Shown here: positions 8,046-31,777 of the stretch, piece after piece
Position numbering within the stretch: the stretch's first letter is position 1
Layout of the letters: the number at the start of each line of letters is the position of its first letter
From: Geminicoccaceae bacterium
GTDB lineage: Bacteria > Pseudomonadota > Alphaproteobacteria > Geminicoccales > Geminicoccaceae
Assembly: GCA_020445645.1 (NCBI GenBank)
Contig: JAGRGG010000049.1
Location: 1-32,225 of the forward strand
Length of the DNA stretch: 32,225 nt
Direction of reading: 5' to 3'
Notes under the pieces: generated by a model
The model's input: the letters and a program-made list of their open reading frames with translations, nothing else
The model's database searches: none
What the model was told of the DNA's origin: nothing
Translations under genes and position numbers: made by a program

Positions 8046-8370
8046 GCTCGCGTTCCACCCTTGCGGCCGGACAACGTCCTCGTCACGTCACGACCTTTCT
8101 CGAAGGTGGTACACGGAATGAAAGGCCAACGCGATGCTGCAATGCATCGCGAACGCCGCACGTCGGTGCGTCGAGCGGGCCTGTCAGGGCAACCCTCATG
8201 CGGCAACGGCGGTCCCACACCCTGGCCAGCCCCTCGCGGTCCGGCGCTTTTCTCGGTATAACTAATATCCTTACAGTCAAGAGACCATAAGGTTCCAACG
8301 GGTGCCGGCGTGGGTCGAAACGATGCTGGCGGTGGCGTCCCGGGTGGGTAATACGTACCCTGATGCAGAT
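8046..8370. other. divergent intergenic region between opgG and the amidase
   Basis: About 325 nt without a recognisable gene. It contains three clear inverted repeats: ACCTT/AAGGT at 8093-8107, GCGATGC/GCATCGC at 8131-8150 with a 6-nt loop, and CGCAC/GTGCG at 8157-8170. An AT-richer patch around 8250-8300 would suit a promoter. On the minus strand TTGACT (8280-8275) is followed by TATACC (8260-8255), but the 14-nt spacing is too short for a standard sigma-70 promoter. Both flanking genes read outward, so promoters for each must lie here. Confidence 0.5.
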
Positions 8371-9585
8371 ATGAACCCGATCCCCGACTCCGACGACCCC
8401 TTCACCGTCCTGGCGCCGCCCCGGCCGTGCCGGACGGGACCGCTCGCGGGCGTCGGCCTCGCCGTCAAGGAGACGATCGCCGTGGCGGGGCTGCCCTGGC
8501 ACGGCGGGTCGAAGGCGCTCGAAGGGCGGATCGCCCGGGCCGACGCGCCCGCCGTCGCGGATCTGCGGGGCGCCGGGGTCGGCGTCGTCGGCCTCACCCG
8601 CTGCGACACGCTCGGCTTCGGGGTGACGACGCCGACGCTGCGCCACCCGTCGGCGCCCGGCCGCAGCGTCGGCGGGTCGAGCGGCGGGGCGGCGGCGGCC
8701 GTACTCCTCGGGCGGGCGGCGCTCGGCCTCGGCACCGACACGGGCGGAAGCTGCCGCATCCCCGCCGCCTGCTGCGGCCTGTTCGGGCTGAAGCCGAGCC
8801 GGGGGCTCGTGCCCCTGGCGGGGATGATGCCGATGGCGCCGGGCCTCGATCACGCGGGGTTCATCGCGGCACGGCTTCCCCTGATCCGCCGCGCCCTCGC
8901 CGTCTTCGACGCCAAGGGCGCGGCGCCGCATCCGCGGCTCGCCGTCGACCGGGAGGCCCTCGCCGCCGCCGAGCCTTCGGTGCGGGACGCGCTCGACGCG
9001 GCACTCGCCCGGCTGGTCGCGGCGGGCCACCGCCTTTGCCCCGTCCGCCTGCCGGGCGAGCCCCTTTGGCGGGCGGCGCACGGCGTCATCGTCTGCCGGG
9101 CGGCGCTGGAAGTCTGGGGCCGGACGCGGCGGGACGGCCTGCCGCCGCGCCTGCTGGCGGCCCTGGACCGGGGTGCCGCCCTCAAGCCGAGGGACGCGGC
9201 CCTGGCCCTGAAGGCGCAGACGGCGTGCACGGCGGCGGTCGACGGCCTGTTCGAGCGTGCCGACCTCCTCCTTCTGCCGACCCTCGCCGTGCCGCCGCCG
9301 CCGCAGCGGGCGAACGTGGTGCCGGTCGGCGGGCACCGCCGCGACGTGGTCGCAGCCCTCACGCTGTACACCGGCCTCTTCAACCTCACGGGCCACCCGG
9401 CGCTCGCCGTGCCCGTCGCGCACCCGGGCACGCCCCTGCCGGCGAGCCTGCAGATCGTCGCCCCCCTGGGCGCCGACCTTGCTCTGGTCGACGCCGTCCG
9501 AGGCCTCCTTCCCCTCCTCGATCCGGACGGCCCGGATCCGGACGAAGATGGCGGGCCTTTCCATGCCAAGGCGGGCGGTGCATAG
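8371..9585 (+). CDS. amidase signature family hydrolase
   Basis: A 404-residue member of the amidase signature (AS) family. The Ser-cisSer-Lys triad is visible: Lys in VGLAVKETIAV, cis-Ser in SVGGSSGGAAAA and the nucleophilic Ser in GLGTDTGGSCRIPAACCG. The later blocks FGLKPSRGLVPLAGMMPMAPGLDHAG and LTGHPALAVPV are also typical. AS enzymes hydrolyse carboxamides, ureido acids or the amide of Gln-tRNA intermediates. Here GatB and GatC are absent and the protein is shorter than GatA (about 480), so a small-molecule amidase (for example an AtzF- or indole-acetamide-hydrolase-like enzyme) is more likely; substrate unknown. I chose ATG 8371 as start because homology begins soon after it. An upstream GTG at 8302 in frame cannot be excluded. 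Confidence 0.85.
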   Translation: MNPIPDSDDPFTVLAPPRPCRTGPLAGVGLAVKETIAVAGLPWHGGSKALEGRIARADAPAVADLRGAGVGVVGLTRCDTLGFGVTTPTLRHPSAPGRSVGGSSGGAAAAVLLGRAALGLGTDTGGSCRIPAACCGLFGLKPSRGLVPLAGMMPMAPGLDHAGFIAARLPLIRRALAVFDAKGAAPHPRLAVDREALAAAEPSVRDALDAALARLVAAGHRLCPVRLPGEPLWRAAHGVIVCRAALEVWGRTRRDGLPPRLLAALDRGAALKPRDAALALKAQTACTAAVDGLFERADLLLLPTLAVPPPPQRANVVPVGGHRRDVVAALTLYTGLFNLTGHPALAVPVAHPGTPLPASLQIVAPLGADLALVDAVRGLLPLLDPDGPDPDEDGGPFHAKAGGA

Positions 9586-9624
9586 TCGCCGCATCCCGCT
9601 TGGCCACGCCCGCCAACGTCCGCC

Positions 9625-10332
9625 ATGAACGACATCGCCGCCGCCTTCGCCCTCGCCCTCGCCCTGATCCGCGCCGCCGACCCCGACCTCGTCGAGATCG
9701 TGGCCTTGTCCCTGCGCGTCAGCCTCACCGCCGTGGCGCTCGCCTGCCTCGTCGGCCTGCCGCTGGGCGCGGCGCTCGCCGTGCTGCGCTTTCGGGGCAG
9801 GGGCGCCCTCGTCCTTCTCGTCAACGTCCTCATGGGCCTGCCCCCGGTCGTCGTCGGCCTCCTCGTCTACCTTTTCCTCTCGCGCTCGGGACCGCTCGGG
9901 GCCTTCGGCCTCCTCTACAGCCCGAGCGCCATGATCCTGGCGCAGTTCGTCCTCGTGACGCCGATCGTCGCCGCCATCGCCCGGCAGGTGGTCGCCGACC
10001 TCCACGCCGAGTACGACGAGCAGTTCCGTGCCTGGGGGATCGGGCCCTGGCGGCGCGTCGGCACCCTCCTCCACGAGGGGCGCCACAGCCTGCTCACGGC
10101 CGCGCTCGCCGGGTTCGGAAGGGCGATCGCCGAGGTCGGCGCCGTCATCATCGTCGGCGGCAACATCGACCACGCGACCCGGGTGATGACGACGGCGATC
10201 GCGCTCGAAACCTCGAAGGGCGACCTCGCGCTTGCCCTGGCACTCGGCCTCCTCCTCCTCGGCCTCGCGTTCGCCGTCAATACCCTGGCGATGGTCCTGC
10301 GTCACGCCGAGCGGGGCCGCGCCCATGCCTGA
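9625..10332 (+). CDS. tupB: tungstate-type ABC transporter permease
   Basis: A 235-residue inner-membrane permease with about five or six hydrophobic segments. Key stretches are LRVSLTAVALACLVGLPLGA, LMGLPPVVVGLLVYLFLSRSGPLG, FGRAIAEVGAVIIVGGNI and the closing MTTAIALETSKGDLALALALG. That last motif is characteristic of TupB/WtpB-like tungstate permeases and separates them from molybdate ModB. The cytoplasmic coupling loop is around residues 130-160 (EYDEQFRAWGIGPWRRVGTLL). The gene overlaps the ATPase by 8 nt. Tungstate import normally needs the periplasmic protein TupA, typically encoded next door; none is present between 8371 and 11490. Assignment to tungstate rather than another oxyanion rests on motif resemblance. 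Confidence 0.85.
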   Translation: MNDIAAAFALALALIRAADPDLVEIVALSLRVSLTAVALACLVGLPLGAALAVLRFRGRGALVLLVNVLMGLPPVVVGLLVYLFLSRSGPLGAFGLLYSPSAMILAQFVLVTPIVAAIARQVVADLHAEYDEQFRAWGIGPWRRVGTLLHEGRHSLLTAALAGFGRAIAEVGAVIIVGGNIDHATRVMTTAIALETSKGDLALALALGLLLLGLAFAVNTLAMVLRHAERGRAHA

Positions 10333-21750: not shown

Positions 21751-22557
21751 ATGCGCGACCTCGCCCTCATGCCCGACGACGTTGCCGCCGGCGTCGTCGC
21801 CGTCTTCGCCGACATCGACGACACGCTGACGACGGCGGGGCGCCTGCCAGCCGCCGCCTACGCGGCGCTGGAGCGGCTGCACGGGGCCAGGCTCGCCGTC
21901 GTCCTGGTGACGGGCCGTCCGGCCGGCTGGTGCGACCTCATCGCAAGGCTCTGGCCCGTCGACGGCGTCGTCGGCGAGAACGGCGCCTTCTACTTCGCCT
22001 ACGACCACAAGGCGCGGCGGATGCGCCGCCGCTTCGTCGCGGACGAACCCGAGCGGCGCGCCAACCGGGAGCGGCTCGACGCGCTCAAGGAGCGCATCCT
22101 AGCATTCGTGCCGGGGTCCGCCGTCGCCTCCGATCAGCTCTACCGCGAAGCCGACCTTGCCATCGACTTCCGCGAGGACGTGCCGCCCCTGGGCGAGGCC
22201 GAGGTGGCGAGGATCGTGGCGCTGTTCGAGGAAGCGGGCGCCGTCGCCAAGGTGTCATCGATCCACGTCAACGGCTGGTTCGGCGCCTACGACAAACTCG
22301 GCATGGCGCGGACGCTGGCCGCCGACGTGCTCGACCTCGACCTCGACGCGGCGCGCGAGCGGATCGTCTTCGTCGGCGACAGCCCGAACGACGCGCCCCT
22401 GTTCGCCTTCTTCCCCAACGCCTGCGGCGTCGCCAACGTGCGGCGCTTCGCGGGGCGGATGGAATCCTACCCCGCCTACGTCGCGGCGGCGGAGGGCGGC
22501 GAAGGCTTCGTCGAGGTTGCGGCGCGGTTGTTGCGGGCGCGGGAGGACTGGACATGA
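21751..22557 (+). CDS. HAD-superfamily (type IIB) sugar-phosphatase-like hydrolase
   Basis: A 268-residue HAD phosphatase. Motif I is FADIDDTLTT (nucleophile and acid Asp), motif II is VLVTGRP, the motif III Lys lies in GAYDKLGMAR, and motif IV is FVGDSPNDAPLFAF. The cap between about residues 80 and 180 is of the C2B type, as in sucrose-phosphate, trehalose-phosphate and mannosyl-3-phosphoglycerate phosphatases. It probably removes phosphate from a sugar or polyol phosphate of the same pathway, or detoxifies a phosphorylated by-product. The ATG is 1 nt after the dehydrogenase stop (TAGG-ATG), and its own TGA overlaps the next ATG by 4 nt, so it is an integral part of the operon. Confidence 0.85.
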   Translation: MRDLALMPDDVAAGVVAVFADIDDTLTTAGRLPAAAYAALERLHGARLAVVLVTGRPAGWCDLIARLWPVDGVVGENGAFYFAYDHKARRMRRRFVADEPERRANRERLDALKERILAFVPGSAVASDQLYREADLAIDFREDVPPLGEAEVARIVALFEEAGAVAKVSSIHVNGWFGAYDKLGMARTLAADVLDLDLDAARERIVFVGDSPNDAPLFAFFPNACGVANVRRFAGRMESYPAYVAAAEGGEGFVEVAARLLRAREDWT

Positions 22558-23483
22558 GCGGGGCGCCTGCCGTGGCGGGCCGGCAGGACGAAGGGGCGTT
22601 CGCGCGCCCCGCCAGGGGCCGGGCGGTGTCCGACCACCCTTTGCCCTGGCTGCTCCCGCTCGTCCTGATCCTGCTCGCCTTCACCGTCTACCCGCTCTTC
22701 TACAACATCTATCTAAGCTTCCACGAGTACGCGCCCTTCAAGCGCGCCCTCGTCTGGGTCGGCACCGAGAACTGGACGCGGCTCTTCGCCGACGGGCGCT
22801 TGTGGGACTCGCTCGGCGTCACCCTCGTCTACTTCGTCGTCGCCCTTGCCATCGAGGTGGCGCTCGGCATGGCGATCGCGCTCCTCCTCGACGCCGACGA
22901 GCCCGGCTTCGGCTTCCTGCGCGGCGTGCTCACCCTCACCCTCGTCATCCCGCCCGCGATCACCGGCATGATGTTCCTCCTCATGGAGGACCCGCAGTTC
23001 GGGATCCTGAGCTACGTCCTCAAGCTCTTCGGCCTCCTCGACAGCACGACGCCGATCCTCGCCACGCCGTCGCTCGCCCTTGCCGGCGTCGTCCTCGCCG
23101 ACGTCTGGCAGTGGACGCCGTTCATGGTGCTGATCTTCCTCGCCGGGCTCAGGGCGCTGCCGGTCGAGCCCTACGAGGCGGCGATGATCGACGGCGCGTC
23201 GCCCCTCCAGACCTTCACCCGCCTCACGCTCCCGATGATGGGCAAGGTGATCGCCGTCGCCGTCCTCATCCGCGGCATCGACCTGTTCCGGGTCTTCGAC
23301 TACGTCTACGTGATGACCTCGGGCGGTCCCGGCACGGCGACGTACAGCCTCAGCCTCTACGCGTGGCAGCAGACGTTCAGCTTCGTGAAGTGGGGCTACG
23401 GGGCGACGATCAGCCTGTTCAGCCTCGTCATCGTCCTCGTCGTCGCCAACCTCTTCATCTATCTCGCCAAGGTGAGGTGGTAG
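22554..23483 (+). CDS. polyol/sugar ABC transporter permease 1 (SmoF/MalF type)
   Basis: A 309-residue CUT1 permease. After a polar N-terminal 25 residues come six hydrophobic segments (LPWLLPLVLILLAFTVYPLF, VTLVYFVVALAIEVALGMAI and others). The EAA loop is PYEAAMIDGASPLQTFTRL, with the typical FRVFDYVYVMTSGGPGTAT afterwards. It resembles the sorbitol/mannitol permeases SmoF and MtlF. GGGAGGA precedes the ATG at 22554, which overlaps the HAD gene stop. It partners with the next gene in the membrane and receives substrate from the Tat-exported binding protein. The substrate is not determinable from the permease. Confidence 0.9.
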   Translation: MSGAPAVAGRQDEGAFARPARGRAVSDHPLPWLLPLVLILLAFTVYPLFYNIYLSFHEYAPFKRALVWVGTENWTRLFADGRLWDSLGVTLVYFVVALAIEVALGMAIALLLDADEPGFGFLRGVLTLTLVIPPAITGMMFLLMEDPQFGILSYVLKLFGLLDSTTPILATPSLALAGVVLADVWQWTPFMVLIFLAGLRALPVEPYEAAMIDGASPLQTFTRLTLPMMGKVIAVAVLIRGIDLFRVFDYVYVMTSGGPGTATYSLSLYAWQQTFSFVKWGYGATISLFSLVIVLVVANLFIYLAKVRW

Positions 23484-24356
23484 ATGCATTCGAGCCCCGC
23501 CGCCCGCGCGCTTCGCTGGGTCCTCGCCTGGGCCGTGGTCGCCCTGTTCGCCTTTCCGATCTACTACTGGATCACCGTCGCCTTCAAGGTGCCGCGGGAG
23601 ATCTTCGACAACCCGCCCCGCGTCTTCGACTTTTCGCCGACAGTCGAGAACTTCGAGAAGGTGTTCGGCTTCAGCTTCGGCGGCGGGTTGCAGACCGTGA
23701 CCGGCGGCGGCGGCAACTTCTACATGACGCCCCGGCTCTGGGATTCGATCGTCATCGCGGTGTTCTCGACCCTGCTCGCCGTCGTGGTCTCGACGCTGGC
23801 CTCCTACGCCCTTTCCCGCATGACCTTCAGGGGCCGGCACCACTTCGTCGCCTGGGTGCTCTCGACCCGGATGATGCCGCCGGTCGCCGTCGCCATCCCG
23901 ATGTTCTTCATCTTCAAGGACCTCTCGCTCCTCGACACCTATACGGGGATGATCCTCGTCCACGCGCTGATGAACCTGCCCTTGGCCGTGCTCCTGCTGA
24001 AGAGCTTCTTCGACGACATCCCGGCCGAGATCGACGAGAGCGCCGTCGTCGACGGGGCCAGCCGCTTCCTCATCTTCCGCCGCATCGTCCTGCCGATGGC
24101 CAAGGGCGGCATCGCGGCGACGGCGGTCCTTTGCTTCATCTTCAGCTGGACTGAGTTCCTCTTCGCCCTCACCCTCACCCAGACCAGCATCAAGACGGTG
24201 CCCGTCGTCTCGTCCACCTTCGTCACCTCGACCGGCACCGCCTGGGGCAACATGGCGGCGCTGGGCGCCGCCGCGATGATCCCGGCCTTCGTCTTCATCC
24301 TCCTCGTGCAAAAGCACCTCGTGCGCGGCCTGACGATGGGCTCGCTCAAGCAGTAG
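23484..24356 (+). CDS. polyol/sugar ABC transporter permease 2 (SmoG/MalG type)
   Basis: A 290-residue CUT1 permease of the MalG type. It has an N-terminal helix ALRWVLAWAVVALFAFPIYY, the hallmark STRMMPPVAVAIPMFFIFKD, the coupling loop EIDESAVVDGASRFLIFRRI (E-S in place of the usual E-A) and FIFSWTEFLFALTLT. The ATG directly abuts the stop of permease 1 (TAG-ATG), with GAGGTGG as ribosome-binding site inside the previous gene. A periplasmic loop after helix 1 (about residues 45-85, including FGGGLQTVTGGGGNFY) is longer and more glycine-rich than usual for the family. Confidence 0.9.
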   Translation: MHSSPAARALRWVLAWAVVALFAFPIYYWITVAFKVPREIFDNPPRVFDFSPTVENFEKVFGFSFGGGLQTVTGGGGNFYMTPRLWDSIVIAVFSTLLAVVVSTLASYALSRMTFRGRHHFVAWVLSTRMMPPVAVAIPMFFIFKDLSLLDTYTGMILVHALMNLPLAVLLLKSFFDDIPAEIDESAVVDGASRFLIFRRIVLPMAKGGIAATAVLCFIFSWTEFLFALTLTQTSIKTVPVVSSTFVTSTGTAWGNMAALGAAAMIPAFVFILLVQKHLVRGLTMGSLKQ

Positions 24357-24395
24357 GCGCGCAACCTCGAACCAACGACCAGGGAGACCGAACCC

Positions 24396-25898
24396 GTGAA
24401 CGACAGGACCAGAAAAGAATATTTGGCCGGAATCGTCGGGCGCTATGTCCGGGGCGAAATCGGCCGCCGTTCATTCCTGCGCACTGCGGGCCGGCTCGGC
24501 CTCGGCGCCGGCGCGCTCGGCCTCGCAGGGCGCCCGCTCGGCCGCGCCCTCTTCCCGGCCGCGCGCGCGGCGGAGGAAGCCCTGCAACCCTCGGCCGAGG
24601 TGCTGAAGTGGGTGGCGGACGCCTCGAAGCCGTTCGCCGGCACGACCCTTCGCCTCGCCACCGAATCGACCCCGCCCTCGAACGCGATCAACTCGCAGCT
24701 CAAGCCCTTCTTCGAGAAGGCGTCGGGCATGACGGTCGAGATCGAAGTGCTGCCGCTCGAGCAGGTGCTCCAGAAGCTCACCCTCGACGTGGCGTCGAAC
24801 CTGGGTACCTACGACCTCTACTACATCGACCAGAGCTGGGCCGCGAGCTTCTACCGGGACGTGTTCGACCCCCGCGAGCAGATCCAGGCGAAGCCCGACC
24901 TCGCCATGCCGAACTACGACATCGACGACTTCCTGCCCGCCCTCGTCGACGGCATCTGCAAGTATGAGGACCGCTGGGTCGGCGTGCCCTACGACATCCC
25001 GATCTTCATCATGATGTACCGCAAGGACATCTACGACAAGATGGGCTTCAAGCCGCCGGCGACGCTGGACGAATACTACACCCAAGCGAAGGCGATCACC
25101 GACGAGATGGGGCCGTCGATGTACGGCGCCACCGGGCAGATGAAGTCCGGCCACTACAGCCTGGAGTGCGACTGGACGGCGTGGCTCTGGGGGCACGGCG
25201 GCTCGATCTTCAACGCCGACAGGAAGTTCACCGGCAACGACGAGCAGGGTCTCGCCGCGATGGACTACTGGTCGAAGCTCTGGAAGACGATGCCGCCCGG
25301 CGTCACCGGGTGGACCTGGGACGGCGAGGGGCAGTCGATCGCCCAGGGCGTCGCGGCCACGATGATGAGCTGGGGCGAGTTCTTCCCCTCCTTCGACGAC
25401 CCCGACGCCTCCAAGGTTTCGGGCCTCGTCGAGCCCGTGCGCTGCCCGAAGCCGACGGCCCTGCGCACGGTCGAGCAGACGGGCTTCGGCGAGATCCCCG
25501 GCGTCGGCCACCAGGGCGGCAGCTCGCTCGCCGTGTCGCAGTATTCCAAGAACCCGGACGCCGCCTGGATCTTCATGCAGTGGGCCACCTGCGCCGACAC
25601 GCAGGCGCTCATCACCACGCTCGGCGGCGGCACCGGCCCCACCCGGTCGAGCGTCTACGACGACCCGCGCGTCAAGGCGAACGCCCGCGTCGGCGCCGGC
25701 ACGACCCGCCACCTCGACGTGGTCCGGGCCACGATCGAGCACGACATGGGCTCGGAGCCGGATCTCCCGCAGTGGGCCGAGCTGTCCAACGACACGATCC
25801 CGGTCCAGCTCGGCCGCTACTTCGCCGGCGAGTACGGCTCGGCGAAGGAGGCGCTCGACGATATCGCGGAGAAGGCCGACGCCGTCGTCAACGGCTGA
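24396..25898 (+). CDS. Tat-exported ABC sugar/polyol-binding protein
   Basis: A 500-residue extracellular solute-binding protein of the SBP_bac_1 type. It begins at GTG 24396 with GGGAGA upstream. The N-terminus carries a twin-arginine motif GRRSFLRTAG followed by a Gly/Ala/Leu-rich hydrophobic stretch, so it should be exported folded by Tat. The mature domain shows TLRLATESTPPSNAINSQL, YDLYYIDQSWAASFYRD, GVPYDIPIFIMMYRKDIYDK, WTAWLWGHGGSIFN and GHQGGSSLAVSQYSKNPDAAW. It is related to sorbitol- and mannitol-binding proteins but longer than most (about 430-450). The gene follows permease 2 by 39 nt and is followed by a strong hairpin. The ligand is unknown, presumably a polyol or small sugar. 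Confidence 0.88.
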   Translation: MNDRTRKEYLAGIVGRYVRGEIGRRSFLRTAGRLGLGAGALGLAGRPLGRALFPAARAAEEALQPSAEVLKWVADASKPFAGTTLRLATESTPPSNAINSQLKPFFEKASGMTVEIEVLPLEQVLQKLTLDVASNLGTYDLYYIDQSWAASFYRDVFDPREQIQAKPDLAMPNYDIDDFLPALVDGICKYEDRWVGVPYDIPIFIMMYRKDIYDKMGFKPPATLDEYYTQAKAITDEMGPSMYGATGQMKSGHYSLECDWTAWLWGHGGSIFNADRKFTGNDEQGLAAMDYWSKLWKTMPPGVTGWTWDGEGQSIAQGVAATMMSWGEFFPSFDDPDASKVSGLVEPVRCPKPTALRTVEQTGFGEIPGVGHQGGSSLAVSQYSKNPDAAWIFMQWATCADTQALITTLGGGTGPTRSSVYDDPRVKANARVGAGTTRHLDVVRATIEHDMGSEPDLPQWAELSNDTIPVQLGRYFAGEYGSAKEALDDIAEKADAVVNG

Positions 25899-25910
25899 CG
25901 CTTCATGACG

Positions 25911-25939
25911 GGGGACGGCGCGGGTCGCCGTCCCCTTTT
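25911..25939 (+). terminator. stem-loop with T-tract after the binding-protein gene
   Basis: GGGGACGGCG (25911-25920) and CGCCGTCCCC (25926-25935) are a perfect 10-bp stem with loop CGGGT, followed by four T. It lies 12 nt after the stop at 25898 and 16 nt before the SDR start, inside the operon. It probably terminates most transcripts, lowering SDR and ATPase expression relative to the binding protein, or protects the upstream mRNA. Confidence 0.75.
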
Positions 25940-25955
25940 GCCCGAGGGAGAAGGC

Positions 25956-26681
25956 ATGGCAAGCAAGCCCCTGGTCGCGATCACGGGCGCCAGTTCCGGC
26001 ATCGGCGAGGCGACGGCGCGCGCCTTCTCGGCGGCGGGCCACCCGTTGCTGCTGCTGGCGCGGCGCCTCGATCGACTGGAGGCCCTGGGCCTGCCCGACG
26101 CGCTCTGCCGCAAGGTCGACGTGCGCGACCGGGAAGGGATCAAGGCGGCCGTCGTCGAGGCCGAGGCGGCGTTCGGCCCCGCCGACCTGATGTTCTGCAA
26201 CGCCGGGATCGCAAGGCTCGCCGACATCGGCCGCCAGGACCCGCTCGAGTGGGACGAGATGATCGACGTCAACGCGAAGGGGGTCATGAACGCCGTCCAC
26301 GCCGTGATGGCGGGCATGATGGAGCGGCGGCGCGGCACGCTCGTCATGATGAGTTCGATCGCCGGCCGCAAGGTCTACCCCGACCACACCGTCTACTGCG
26401 GCACCAAGTTCTTCGTCCACGCCGTCTCGGAGAGCCTGCGCGAATACCTCTCCGCCTACGACGTCCGCGTCATCGTCGTCTCGCCCGGCATCATCGAGAC
26501 CGAAGTCCTGGACGCCGTCACCGACGCGACGACGCTCGCCAGCTACAAGGCCAACAAGGCGAGGATCGGCGGCGGCATCCCGGCCTCGCACGTCGCCGAC
26601 CTCATCCTGAACGCCTACGACCTGCCGCAGAACGCCCTCGTCCAGGAGATCTGCCTGACCCCGACCCGGCAGACCTACTGA
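25956..26681 (+). CDS. short-chain dehydrogenase/reductase
   Basis: A 241-residue classical SDR. The cofactor motif is TGASSGIGEA, followed by MFCNAGIA (NAG motif), the catalytic Ser in LVMMSSIAGRK, and Tyr/Lys in VYCGTKFF (YxxxK), then VSPGIIETEVL. The residues after beta-strand 2 (LLLLARRLDRLEAL) include Arg-Arg, which favours NADP(H) over NAD(H). In similar polyol loci (SmoS) the SDR oxidises the imported polyol to a ketose. GAGGGAGAAG precedes ATG 25956, so this start is preferred over 25905, which lies in the hairpin. It is separated from the ATPase gene by 19 nt. The substrate is unknown. Confidence 0.9.
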   Translation: MASKPLVAITGASSGIGEATARAFSAAGHPLLLLARRLDRLEALGLPDALCRKVDVRDREGIKAAVVEAEAAFGPADLMFCNAGIARLADIGRQDPLEWDEMIDVNAKGVMNAVHAVMAGMMERRRGTLVMMSSIAGRKVYPDHTVYCGTKFFVHAVSESLREYLSAYDVRVIVVSPGIIETEVLDAVTDATTLASYKANKARIGGGIPASHVADLILNAYDLPQNALVQEICLTPTRQTY

Positions 26682-26700
26682 AGGGTCATTGGAGCACCGC

Positions 26701-27765
<1,065 letters not shown>

Positions 27766-27810: not shown

Positions 27811-28311
27811 TTACGGAACCCGCTGCGGCGCCCCCGCCCCCGCCCCCGACGGCGGCGGCTTCTCGTCTTCCCGGACGATGAAGACCGCGCAGCGGGCGTG
27901 GCGGGCGACGCGGGCGGTGTTGGGGCCGAGGAGGTAGTCCTTCAGGGACGGGCGGTGCGAGGCCATGACGATGAGGTCGGCGGGGAGTTCCTCGGCGGCC
28001 TGAAGGATCTCGTGGTAGATCGTGCCGTGGGTGGCGATGGTGCCGCCGCGCAGCGTCTCCGGGACGTTGTCGCGGACGAGCTCGTCGAGGCGCCGTTCGG
28101 CCTGCCTGACGAGTTCCTTGACGTCGTAATCCCCCGAACCGCCGGTCTCGCCGCGGATGGCGTAGCGCCAGTCGACGCCCGCCACGATGTGCGGCACGAC
28201 GGTCATGAGGTAGACCTTGCCGTCGCGCGCCTTCGCCTGGACGACCGCCTCGGGCAAGGCCCGGTGCCAGGAGCTCTTGTGCTCCAGGTCGATGGGGCAG
28301 AGGACGTTCAT
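27811..28311 (-). CDS. universal stress protein (UspA family) of the BCCT operon
   Basis: A 166-residue cytoplasmic Usp protein starting MNVLCPIDLEHKSSWHRALP. The C-terminal nucleotide-binding segment is ADLIVMASHRPSLKDYLLGP followed by NTARVARHARCAVFIVRE. The usual G-x2-G-x9-G-S/T ATP motif is altered (SHRP in place of GxxG), and this resembles the TeaD type that accompanies the TRAP ectoine transporter TeaABC and regulates it. GAGGAGAG precedes ATG 28311. The ATG overlaps the TGA of the binding-protein gene by 4 nt (ATGA), so it is translationally coupled to the transporter operon and is probably a regulatory subunit for it. The last 15 residues are Pro/Gly/Ala-rich. Confidence 0.87.
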   Translation of the reverse strand: MNVLCPIDLEHKSSWHRALPEAVVQAKARDGKVYLMTVVPHIVAGVDWRYAIRGETGGSGDYDVKELVRQAERRLDELVRDNVPETLRGGTIATHGTIYHEILQAAEELPADLIVMASHRPSLKDYLLGPNTARVARHARCAVFIVREDEKPPPSGAGAGAPQRVP

Positions 28312-30209
28312 GTACGCTCTCCTCTGATGACGTCGCGCTGCAACCGGACGCGCGGCTCGGCGATGAGCAGGTAGAACAGGAAGACCATCATCACGATCAC
28401 GAACAGGTTGGCGAGCGAGGCCCACGGGCTGGAGACGAGGCTCGTCGCCTCTTCGTGAAGCTTGGTCGTCAGCATCGCCGCCTGCGGCAGGGCGGGGTCG
28501 ACCAGTTCCATCCGCCCGAACGCCTCGCGCAGGCCCGTGATCGTCTCGTCGGGCAGGACCTGGGCCGGCTTGGTGCCGGTGGTCTGCGGCCCGCGCTCGC
28601 CGATCTCGCCCTCACGGCTTACGGGTCCGATCAGGACCATCTGCGAGGAGAGCGTGTCGACGGCGTCGCCCATGCCGGGGTAGGTCTGGGGCGCCAAGCG
28701 CGCCGGGCGCAGGAAGGAGAAGCGCAACGCCGCCGGGCTCTGCGTCCAGGCTTCCACCCCGAGGAGGCGACGGCCGTTGCCCATGATCCCGGCGACGTCG
28801 GACTCGCCCTGCGGCGCCATGACGAGGAGCGCGTCGATGTCGCCCTTCGCCAGCGCCTCGGCGCGGCCGGCGAGGTCCTGCGCCTGCGGCACGACCTCGA
28901 CCGTCCCGTCGAGGCCGAGCCCGGCCAGGAGCAGGCGGGCGGTGCGGTCGGAGGACGACCCCGCCTCGCCGACGCCGAGCCGCTTGATCCCTTCCAGGCC
29001 CCGCGGCCCGTCCTTCTCGGCGATCAGGTGGACCAGCTTGTAGCCGACGACGCCGACCGCCTCGACCCCGCCGCGTGGGGCGGGCTTGCCGTCCCGGGCG
29101 GTGAAGAAGTCGTCCGCCGAAGTGACGCCGAGGCGGGCCTTGCCGTCGCGCACCGCCTCCAGGGGGTCCGGGGTGCGGTCGAGCCGGAGCTGCGCGTCCT
29201 TGAACGCGGTGCGGGCCGCCCGCACGGCGCGGCCGGCGGGGCCGGAGAGCGAGTCGTCCGTTTCGAGCGCCATCGGGACGGTCTCGCCCGGGGCGCCCCC
29301 GGCGGCGCCCTCGCCCGGCGCCTTGAGCAGGCCCTTGTCGGTGAGGAACGCGAGCGCCACCGTTTCTGCGCTCTGCCCGCCCAGCGTGACGGCGGCGTTG
29401 AGCCTGCGCATCTCGCCGGTGGAGAGCTTGCCGGCGAGCCTGCCGATCGCGGCGGAAAGGTTCGGAAAGCGGGCGAGCGCGTCCTGGCGGACGACGGGGG
29501 CGCCCTCGTAGACCGGGAAGAACTTGAGGTCGTCCTTGAGCACCTTGAGCCCGTAGGCGTCGATCTCGGCGTCGGTCGTGTAGAGTTCCGCCGCCTGCGC
29601 CCTGCCGTCGAGGAGGGCCTCCATGATCTTGTCCTTGCCGCCCTCGGCCACGTCGTAGGCGAGCGGGTCGCCGAGGTCGAGCGCGTAGCGGCGGGCCATC
29701 GGCCCCAGCCCGTCGAGCGGCCGCTCGGCGAAGGTGGTGTCGACGGCGAGCGTGAGGCCTTGGATCCGGGAGAGGTCGCTGATCGTTCCGATGCCCTGGG
29801 CATCCGCCGCCTCGGGGCGCATGACGATGGCGTAGTCGTTGGCGAAGCCGAGGCGGTCCAGCCAGTTGAGGCCCAGGGGGCCGTAGAGTTCCCGCACCTT
29901 GGCGAGCGAGGCGTCGCCGTCCTGGGAGGGGGTCTGGCCCGTGTAGGCGAGGCCCGTGCCGTTGTAGTCGAGGTAGAGGTCGATCCGGCCCTCCTTGATC
30001 GCCTCGAACGCCTCGGCCGAGTCGCCGTAGGGGATCCTGCGCTCGACCGGGATGCCGGCGTCCTCGGCGAGGTCGGCCAGCATGTAGCCGACGACCTCGC
30101 TCTCGATGAAGTCCTTCGAGCCCACCTTCAGGGGGTCGACCGACTCGCCGCAGGCGGCGAGCAGGCCGAGCGGGGCAAGCGCGACGATGGCCTTGGCGAA
30201 GCGGTTCAT
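28308..30209 (-). CDS. lipoprotein with osmoprotectant-binding domain fused to a TAXI-like domain and C-terminal membrane helix
   Basis: A 633-residue protein with lipobox LLAAC (Cys20). Residues 25-300 form an OpuAC/ProX-type domain: LKVGSKDFIESEVVGYMLAD, GRIDLYLDYNGTGLAYTGQT and RLGFANDYAIVMRPEAA match binding proteins for quaternary amines such as glycine betaine and choline. Residues 310-590 form a second binding-like domain with TAXI features (AVRDGKARLGVTSADDF, IKRLGVGEAGSSSDRTARLL, LAKGDIDALLVMAPQG, TLSSQMVLIGPVS). A hydrophobic helix at about 599-617 (LANLFVIVMMVFLFYLLIA) precedes a basic tail. It would thus be held in the membrane at both ends. Start ATG 30209 overlaps the BCCT stop by 4 nt. 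No ABC permease or ATPase is nearby. Domain 1 is firm, domain 2 tentative. Confidence 0.8.
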   Translation of the reverse strand: MNRFAKAIVALAPLGLLAACGESVDPLKVGSKDFIESEVVGYMLADLAEDAGIPVERRIPYGDSAEAFEAIKEGRIDLYLDYNGTGLAYTGQTPSQDGDASLAKVRELYGPLGLNWLDRLGFANDYAIVMRPEAADAQGIGTISDLSRIQGLTLAVDTTFAERPLDGLGPMARRYALDLGDPLAYDVAEGGKDKIMEALLDGRAQAAELYTTDAEIDAYGLKVLKDDLKFFPVYEGAPVVRQDALARFPNLSAAIGRLAGKLSTGEMRRLNAAVTLGGQSAETVALAFLTDKGLLKAPGEGAAGGAPGETVPMALETDDSLSGPAGRAVRAARTAFKDAQLRLDRTPDPLEAVRDGKARLGVTSADDFFTARDGKPAPRGGVEAVGVVGYKLVHLIAEKDGPRGLEGIKRLGVGEAGSSSDRTARLLLAGLGLDGTVEVVPQAQDLAGRAEALAKGDIDALLVMAPQGESDVAGIMGNGRRLLGVEAWTQSPAALRFSFLRPARLAPQTYPGMGDAVDTLSSQMVLIGPVSREGEIGERGPQTTGTKPAQVLPDETITGLREAFGRMELVDPALPQAAMLTTKLHEEATSLVSSPWASLANLFVIVMMVFLFYLLIAEPRVRLQRDVIRGERT

Positions 30210-31777
30210 TCGGCCGGCCTCCCTTCCGCGGGAACGACGCGCGTCCCGTCCTCGCCGTAGAGCCTCACCCGCATGTAGCGGGGCATCGGCGGCGTCTCCT
30301 CGCGCAGCGCCCGGAAGAACCCGACCAGCTGGAAGAGGACGATGAAGGTGAAGGGGATGGCGCCCGTGATCGCCATCGCCTTCGCCACGGTGATGCTGCC
30401 GCTGAACAGCGTGCCGACGGTGATCGCGGCGATGATCAGGCCCCAGACGAGCTTGGTGAGCGTCGACGGGTTGAGGCTGCCGTTCGTCGTCATCATGGCG
30501 ACGACGTAGGTGCCGCTGTCGGCGCTGGTGACGAGGAAGATGAAGACGAGCGAGATGGCGAGGACGTTCAGGATCTGCGAGAACGGCAGGTAGTTGAGGA
30601 AGACGAAGAACGCCTTGGTCACGTCGGCGAAGACCACCTCGGAGAGCCCGCCCGCGCCGTGCATCTCGATGTAGAGCCCGGCCCCCCCGAAGACGGCGAA
30701 CCAGAGCATCGAGAACAGGGTGGGGACCAGGATGACGCCGATGCAGAACTCGCGGATGGTGCGGCCCCGGCTGATGCGGGCGATGAAGATGCCGACGAAC
30801 GGCCCCCAGGCAATCCACCAGATGAGGTAGGTGAGCGTCCAGCTGTGCACCCAGCTGCGCAGCTCTTCCTTATAGGTGAACAGCCTGAACGAGTAGTCGA
30901 CGAGCCGGCCGAAGTAGTCGCCCAGCGAATTGACGAAGACGCCGAAGAGGAAGGTCGTGGGGCCGACGAAGAGGACGATCAGCATCAGGGCGATCGCCAG
31001 GATCATGTTGAGGTTGGAGAGGATCTTGATGCCCTTGTCGACGCCCGTGCAGGCCGAGGTGAGGAAGGCGGCCGTCATGGCGACGAGGATGATGACGCTC
31101 ATCGTGTCGGTGCCGGGGGTGCCGAACACCTGGGTCATCCCGGAGCGGGTCATGAGCACGCCCGACGAGAGCGAGCCCGCGAGGCCGAAGATCACGGCGA
31201 GCACGGCGACGATGTCGGCGAACGCGCCGAAGCCGTTGGTGAGCTTCGCGCCCAACAGGGGCTTCAAGGAATAGATGATCGGCGTCGAGACCATCGACGC
31301 CTGGTCCTTGCGGAAGACGAAGTAGGCGATGACGAGCGCGCAGATGCCGTAGATCGACCACGCGTGCAGGCCCCAGTGCAGGTTGACGATGGCGAGCGCC
31401 GTCCGCGCCGCCTCCGGGGTCTGCCCCACCTCGCCCGGCGGCGAGTAGTAGTGGTACATCGGCTCTGCGACGCCCCAGAAGAGGAGGCCCGAGCCCATCC
31501 CGCCCGCGAACAGCATGGCGATCCACGACGCCGTGTCGAACTCCGGCACGTCGTCGTCCTTGCCCAGCTTGATCCCGCCGTAGGGGCCGATGGCGAGGAA
31601 CAGGCTGATGACGAGGAACATCGTGCAGACGAGGAGGTAGAGCCAGTCGAGGCTGTCGAGGGCGGCCCCGGTCAACCCCAGGGCCATGTCGGCCAACTGG
31701 TCGGGGAAGATGACCCCCCAGATCCCGATGGCGGCGCTCAGCGCCATCGACACGACGAGGACGACGTTGCCGCGCAT
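30206..31777 (-). CDS. BCCT-family betaine/choline/carnitine-type transporter
   Basis: A 523-residue secondary transporter with about 12 hydrophobic segments. The family's glycine-rich segment is FAGGMGSGLLFWGVAEPMYH, with Ser at the position that is Ile in BetP (MGIGL). The BCCT signature is WTLTYLIWWIAWGPFVGIFIAR followed by ISRGRTIREF, which contains the Trp residues of the betaine box, and VTSADSGTYVVAMM is also typical. BCCT carriers import quaternary ammonium compounds, often with Na+ or H+, for osmoprotection. The C-terminal tail after the last helix is about 30 residues, shorter than the osmosensing tail of BetP. GGGGAGAA lies 7 nt before ATG 31777. It is the first gene of the BCCT-binding protein-Usp operon; both junctions are ATGA overlaps. 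Confidence 0.93.
   Translation of the reverse strand: MRGNVVLVVSMALSAAIGIWGVIFPDQLADMALGLTGAALDSLDWLYLLVCTMFLVISLFLAIGPYGGIKLGKDDDVPEFDTASWIAMLFAGGMGSGLLFWGVAEPMYHYYSPPGEVGQTPEAARTALAIVNLHWGLHAWSIYGICALVIAYFVFRKDQASMVSTPIIYSLKPLLGAKLTNGFGAFADIVAVLAVIFGLAGSLSSGVLMTRSGMTQVFGTPGTDTMSVIILVAMTAAFLTSACTGVDKGIKILSNLNMILAIALMLIVLFVGPTTFLFGVFVNSLGDYFGRLVDYSFRLFTYKEELRSWVHSWTLTYLIWWIAWGPFVGIFIARISRGRTIREFCIGVILVPTLFSMLWFAVFGGAGLYIEMHGAGGLSEVVFADVTKAFFVFLNYLPFSQILNVLAISLVFIFLVTSADSGTYVVAMMTTNGSLNPSTLTKLVWGLIIAAITVGTLFSGSITVAKAMAITGAIPFTFIVLFQLVGFFRALREETPPMPRYMRVRLYGEDGTRVVPAEGRPAE

Follow-up and report, generated by a model that had tools for sequence, protein, structure and literature searches.

Can a secondary carrier of the BCCT family be served by a substrate-binding protein of its own? 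The question is raised by a locus of a Geminicoccaceae bacterium (GenBank assembly GCA_020445645.1), contained in the first 32,225 nucleotides of contig JAGRGG010000049.1 (hereafter the window), where three reverse-strand genes follow one another: a BCCT carrier, a lipoprotein that joins an OpuAC-type domain (domain 1) and a TAXI-like domain (domain 2) in one chain, and a universal stress protein. The unit is real and conserved, and the anatomy of the tandem binding protein is confirmed. We favor, with somewhat more confidence than doubt, the reading that the BCCT and the tandem binding protein, often joined by the universal stress protein, make up a secondary transporter that depends on its binding protein and serves compatible solutes of the betaine kind (quaternary or otherwise cationic). 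The computed support comprises gene order, gene overlaps, co-inheritance, the domain 1 cage, the BCCT aromatic box, the TAXI fold of domain 2, and two membrane anchors.

Results

The tandem binding-protein gene (28308-30209, reverse strand) translates to 633 residues without a stop, covering a lipoprotein signal, the OpuAC and TAXI-like domains, and a C-terminal membrane helix. Its start is well supported because the ATG and the BCCT stop codon share bases as ATGA, and the same overlap recurs in eight further loci. The lipobox LAAC at Cys20 (LAAC-G; 30150-30161, reverse strand) is evident from the translation, the lipobox pattern and the aligned Cys, which is invariant in 11/11 alignment rows. 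These 11-row alignments cover the window protein and its homologues; the two plasmid copies introduced below (L201 and L202) were left out of them and also carry the lipobox, and the row of locus L002 begins past a frameshift, its true lipobox lying in another frame. Domain 1 spans residues 26-290 (29340-30134, reverse strand) according to Pfam, Foldseek and the alignment columns, and domain 2 spans residues ~303-590 (28440-29303, reverse strand) according to profiles and the predicted structure, with a sequence-level match at 351-527. The whole-chain AlphaFold2 model (predicted local distance difference test, pLDDT, 81) contains two binding-protein folds followed by a helix at residues 595-616 (28362-28427, reverse strand) and a short basic tail. 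Residues 599-617 are the most hydrophobic 19-residue stretch (mean Kyte-Doolittle hydropathy 2.72), and a similar C-terminal stretch occurs in 11/11 homologues (2.24-2.72); the tail of the window protein is only modestly basic (+5/-3). Because of the C-terminal helix, the lipid-bearing end would also stay at the inner membrane. The first-pass annotation had drawn this layout from the letters alone, with a lipobox at Cys20, an OpuAC-type domain at 25-300, a second, TAXI-like domain at 310-590, and a hydrophobic helix at about 599-617 with a basic tail, and all four elements are borne out.

At least 13 full-length copies of the tandem binding protein were found in Alpha- and Gammaproteobacteria. 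Besides the window, they comprise three loci of two related genomes (L002, L003, and L016), four loci (L018-L021) from one Acidiferrobacterales and one Hyphomicrobiales metagenome genome and from Thiohalocapsa halophila DSM 6210, which has two, three loci from genomes of another family in the same class (L158-L160), and plasmids of Paracoccus aminovorans (L201) and Martelella sp. NC18 (L202). A Martelella NC20 record that agrees with NC18 in query range and identity was not counted. A single-protein search of genome contigs found no copies; a four-row alignment search then gave the four full-length copies L018-L021. The unit is rare, occurring in 3/31 genomes of the order, 2/398 of the phylum sample (window included), and 3/149 genomes of the second family, with the limit that the phylum and BCCT scans scored at most three candidates per genome and may have missed weak copies. 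The loci from genome searches mostly carry 1.5-kb flanks. Two genomes hold two divergent copies of the pair each, namely G019 (L003 and L016) and Thiohalocapsa halophila (L020 and L021), and each of them has one pair from each of two tree sub-groups.

A BCCT gene lies immediately upstream in 13/13 copies. The two genes overlap by 4 bases in nine of the 13 (window, L002, L003, L016, L019, L020, L021, L159, and L202) and are separated by 5 to 26 bases in L160, L018, and L158; L201 was left unscored for overlap, as the BCCT is frameshifted in that record. Since the arrangement is conserved in every copy found, it is an evolved unit and no local accident. The earlier proposal that two binding-protein families sit in one chain with two anchors, next to a BCCT, thus extends to all 13 loci. 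The fused chain itself might be suspected to be an assembly or annotation artefact in which two separate genes only seem joined, given that many copies come from draft metagenome genomes and that L002 has a stop codon at the domain border. A single uninterrupted frame is nevertheless present in 12/13 loci, including the Thiohalocapsa halophila DSM 6210 assembly and the complete plasmids of Paracoccus aminovorans and Martelella. These independent intact copies refute the artefact, to which we assign a negligible probability.

The carrier and the binding protein are also inherited together. The window BCCT (523 residues; 30206-31777, reverse strand), whose stop overlaps the binding-protein ATG by 4 bases, matches PF02028 over its whole length (residues 6-494, 556 bits, E 7.7e-167), and its profile matches the Protein Data Bank structures of BetP and relatives. 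Scores of BCCTs from the 398 phylum and 31 order genomes are bimodal, with complete linked members at 843-920 bits and all others at 519 or below; the partial BCCT of L002 reaches 575 bits. In a 56-row BCCT tree, from which the duplicate loci L161, L167, L136, and L162 and the partial L137 were left out, the linked BCCTs cluster as a single group (support 83/97), and together with a three-row sister group they are supported at 100/100. The main groupings of the BCCT tree recur in that of the binding protein. Pairwise distances of the binding protein track those of the BCCT over seven loci (Mantel r 0.75 for domain 1 and 0.89 for domain 2), with values as high in 4/5000 and 8/5000 permutations, respectively; L002, L158-L160, L201, and L202 were left out of this distance test. 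Conversely, among the OpuAC-only loci in the matches listed, 0/76 encode a BCCT or domain 2 (E 1e-3, 872 kb), and among the other BCCT loci, 0/46 have domain 1, domain 2, or a TAXI domain in the flanks scanned, only the five linked loci being positive. TAXI-only or OpuAC-only neighbors of BCCTs were likewise sought in these flanks, and none appeared.

The sister group (L138/L157, L168, and L169) has the motif WTL[TN]YMVWW and no binding protein, which makes it useful for dating the origin of the partnership. It was considered as an early form of the partnership and rejected, as its scanned flanks contain no domain 1, domain 2, or TAXI domain.

These results bear on the reading that the binding protein serves an ABC importer encoded elsewhere, its BCCT neighbor reflecting incidental co-regulation of two osmolyte systems. 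Public annotation names the protein a glycine betaine ABC transporter substrate-binding protein, and three proV-like ATPase genes above the family cut-off lie on other contigs of the window genome. Against this stand the adjoining and mostly overlapping BCCT gene, the co-inheritance of carrier and binding protein within one BCCT group, and two annotated neighborhoods that list no ABC permease or ATPase. An importer of this kind is thus a very improbable partner, and the neighbor of domain 1 in all loci is a BCCT rather than ABC components.

Domain 1 is of the OpuAC type. PF04069 (OpuAC) matches residues 26-290 with E 2.1e-46 and 159 bits against a gathering score of 21.2, and it matches 11/11 homologues at E 0.01 or better. 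The best Foldseek matches are of the OpuBC/OpuCC/EgtU class (7.5e-27); in sequence, the solved proteins nearest to it are OpuBC-class sensors engineered for nicotine and acetylcholine. The cage-equivalent residues are Y82, Y126, Y210, and Y234, so the aromatic cage that the first-pass annotation proposed to look for is largely kept: Y82 and Y234 in 11/11 rows, Y126 in 10/11, and a Tyr or Phe at position 210 in 10/11 (Leu in L019). In sensors of the OpuBC class, the amine is contacted by Tyr65 and Tyr357, according to the part of PMC8820738 available. Y82 is aligned with sensor chain position 65, and in our reading of the alignment, Tyr357 corresponds to Y126. Domain 1 therewith keeps residues expected to form a cation cage, and its ligand role is predicted from them.

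Domain 2 is more remote. PF16868 (TAXI/NMT1-like) matches the window protein with E 0.0024 (19.6 bits against a cut-off of 27), and TIGR02122 (TRAP_TAXI) matches domain 2 alone with E 2e-8 (33.5 bits against a curated cut-off of 84.35); the latter is matched by 10/11 homologues. The suggested profile comparison with TAXI families thus yields matches, though below the curated cut-offs. A profile of the eleven homologues matches TtGluBP (1us4) at 7.4e-15 and VcGluP (8s4j) at 2.8e-5, and a profile-profile comparison (hhalign) with eight TAXI proteins from related genomes gives E 9.4e-20. In a VIA-align comparison, the AlphaFold2 model of domain 2 alone (mean pLDDT 83.7) places six TAXI entries on top (Z 18.5-21.3), the next listed entry being at 12.9; the comparison speaks to the listed entries, and families absent from the listing are not thereby excluded. 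Judged from profiles and predicted structure, domain 2 is a real but remote TAXI (TRAP-type) binding-protein domain by fold and descent. Neither of the two outcomes that would have undone the original proposal, a second domain with no binding-protein fold or homologues devoid of a lipobox, was encountered.

Whether domain 2 binds a ligand is a separate matter. The position of TtGluBP Gln78 and VcGluP Q93 is Ser, Gly, Ala, or Pro in 11/11 rows. As stated in the accessible portion of PMC11574862, loss of Q93 lowers the affinity of VcGluP 990-fold, and the key Gln is found in 54% of TAXI sequences. In the first loop, where the key Tyr (Y45) would lie, no Tyr is seen by eye; the profile alignments begin only after that loop. 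Because the main TAXI ligand glutamine is absent throughout, a second ligand-binding role is uncertain: the earlier idea of two binding domains holds for the fold of domain 2 and is left in doubt for its function. One could picture a two-ligand system, with domain 1 delivering betaine-like solutes and domain 2 some different ligand, which would widen the range of the carrier. The full TAXI fold (Z up to 21.3) would allow it, and the invariant H394, W488, and Q523, together with the nearly invariant R359, could form a new pocket; G540 and P541 are also among the invariant residues. Apart from the lost glutamine, this arrangement is disfavored by the lower conservation of domain 2 relative to domain 1 (mean identity 0.31 versus 0.40 over seven loci), and we regard it as quite unlikely. 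Domain 2 may instead be a docking module rather than a ligand binder.

The BCCT keeps an intact aromatic box, with the HW..H.W..Y motif and the paired Trp; we take these residues to correspond to W189, W194, Y197, W373, and W374 of BetP. A Thr replaces the Ile preceding the aromatic-box Tyr in the BCCTs of L020 and G008. A later helix reads WTLTYLIWW in 12/12 distinct BCCTs of the group (L201 and L202 were left out of this check) and in 0/45 rows outside it, where BetP and most other BCCTs examined have WT..YW.WW, the Tyr being preceded by Phe or Leu. The difference presumably replaces F369 and W371 in BetP numbering.

The complete aromatic box means that the BCCT could work alone, which suits a reading in which the double binding protein is a regulator rather than a donor, sensing external betaine or ionic conditions and gating the BCCT allosterically while the carrier loads from the periplasm. 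The genetics would be the same as for the transporter reading, domain 2 appears remodeled, and the C-terminal helix could couple to the carrier within the membrane. Yet the cage-equivalent residues of binding proteins for uptake are retained in domain 1, and the partners in the parallel TRAP and TAXI-GltS cases are seen as donors (PMC12344293, in the part available). A purely regulatory role is an unlikely explanation, and donation to the BCCT is the reading we prefer.

The universal stress protein (166 residues; 27811-28311, reverse strand; PF00582, E 7.8e-20) has an ATG that overlaps the binding-protein stop by 4 bases. Such a gene lies downstream in 7/13 loci (window, L002, L018, L158, L159, L160, and L201), and the longer loci L161 and L162, which extend the flanks of L003 and L016, contain no universal stress protein either. 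Universal stress proteins were noted earlier beside TRAP genes and appear to regulate TRAP function negatively (PMC11574862, in the same portion). A mechanosensitive-channel gene near 3/13 loci (L003, L020, and L202) weakly fits an osmotic role.

Elsewhere in the window, a sugar-type ABC importer at 21930-27765 (forward strand), consisting of two permeases, a binding protein and a MalK-like ATPase with a short-chain dehydrogenase between, was rejected as a partner, lying on the opposite strand and belonging to another class. At 8083-10326 (reverse strand), a 747-residue open frame with no Pfam match at 1e-5 stands beside a 1230-residue frame with a glycosyltransferase domain. In genomes of the order, the TAXI open frames of L108, L109, L111, L112, and L122 are, from stop to stop, much longer than usual TAXI.

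Discussion

The transporter reading can be put as a mechanism that draws on gene order, co-inheritance and conserved sites, from which we infer ligand hand-off from the binding protein to the BCCT. Domain 1 would capture the solute in the periplasm and close around it, while the lipid anchor and the C-terminal helix would keep the chain near the inner membrane beside the BCCT. Domain 2, a TAXI domain without the usual glutamate-site glutamine, would mainly dock or bridge, placing domain 1 over the outward-facing BCCT, and the carrier would receive the released solute and import it with Na+ (or H+). The universal stress protein would probably tune the carrier from the cytoplasm, much as TeaD reportedly tunes the TeaABC TRAP transporter.

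Several observations weigh against this interpretation. Most BCCTs work without a binding protein, and the linked BCCT may do so too. A closely related BCCT of the same group, L156 in genome G008, occurs without a binding protein found in that genome. L003 has Phe in place of Y126, which is one of the two tyrosines assumed to touch the ligand. In locus L002 (1-2902, genome G025), the frame shifts close to the lipobox, an in-frame TAG lies where the two domains meet, and the BCCT frame contains a stop; on plasmid IV of Paracoccus aminovorans JCM7685 (L201, 3401-4890), the BCCT is split over two frames, with the binding protein and the universal stress protein intact and no BCCT listed there in the gene table. 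These frameshifts and stops mean that the unit may be dispensable, or that the records contain sequence errors; for L002, decay and draft-assembly errors cannot be told apart.

In the vicinity of L156 (5035-7574), the gene directly behind the BCCT, on the other strand, resembles an IS110-type transposase by eye.

BCCTs have the LeuT fold, and there is an even chance that the unit is the first LeuT-fold (rocking-bundle) binding-protein-dependent carrier, a BCCT fed by a doubly pinned tandem of ABC-class and TRAP-class binding domains. Before TAXI-GltS, the TRAP and TTT classes were the only secondary transporters with a known soluble binding protein; all three classes are likely elevators, the elevator mechanism is perhaps required, and further classes would test that requirement (PMC12344293, as far as its main text goes). 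A BCCT accompanied by a conserved binding-protein gene that overlaps its own offers the kind of test case called for there and, if the reading is true, a LeuT-fold BCCT would be a direct counter-example to elevator-only use of binding proteins. Confirmation would widen the known range of binding-protein-dependent transporters to a carrier family thought to work alone, one with many solved structures (BetP and others). It would also correct the current annotation as ABC transporter components and give organisms such as Thiohalocapsa halophila, with its two copies, a further candidate system for osmolyte uptake. In the main text of PMC12344293, neither "BCCT" nor "betaine" is present, and a review of multicomponent transporters (PMC8276074) mentions neither BCCT nor LeuT. 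The available text of PMC7824335 discusses the BetT and ProU systems of phototrophs, including Thiohalocapsa, and the term "BCCT" is absent from it. Titles and abstract starts of the open-licence literature yielded no account of a BCCT that has a binding protein; the two papers in which both "BCCT" and "TAXI" occur compare Streptomyces genomes and treat brain imaging, respectively. By these searches and within that literature, the unit of BCCT and tandem binding protein is undescribed.

Comparison with known systems

A close parallel is TAXI-GltS of Bordetella pertussis (BP0403/BP0402), as described in PMC12344293. Both have a larger-than-usual lipoprotein with the TAXI domain at its C-terminal side, and both couple it translationally to a secondary carrier of a kind that normally functions by itself. 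They differ in the carrier, which is GltS, modeled as an elevator, in Bordetella and a BCCT here; in the extra N-terminal domain, PilO-like there and OpuAC here; in the C-terminal membrane helix, for which the available passages mention no counterpart in BP0403; and in the TAXI domain, which in Bordetella retains both glutamate-site residues, Tyr and Gln.

Domain 1 shares its fold and cage-equivalent aromatics with OpuAC, OpuBC, OpuCC, ProX, and EgtU, whereas here it has no adjacent ABC partner and continues into a TAXI domain and a C-terminal helix of the same chain. Domain 2 shares the fold of TtGluBP (1US4) and VcGluP (8S4J), with ~250 residues aligned at Z 21 and a recognizable IPAGTYxG region, but it differs in the absent Gln93/Gln78 equivalent and in being partnered with a BCCT instead of a TRAP membrane protein. 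The carrier resembles BetP and other BCCTs in its whole-length family match and aromatic box, and it departs from them in WTLTYLIWW and in the binding-protein neighbor of all group copies but G008. As in systems known to depend on a binding protein, a membrane-tethered binding protein and a carrier are encoded together with overlapping genes (nine of 13 overlapping, a lipobox in all), yet the membrane component is a BCCT and not an elevator-type TRAP, TTT, or GltS protein. If hand-off holds, the unit would resemble TeaABC-TeaD in having an osmolyte carrier that depends on a binding protein, with a universal stress protein encoded behind it; there, a TRAP carrier works with a DctP-type binding protein, whereas here a BCCT is paired with OpuAC and TAXI domains in a single chain.

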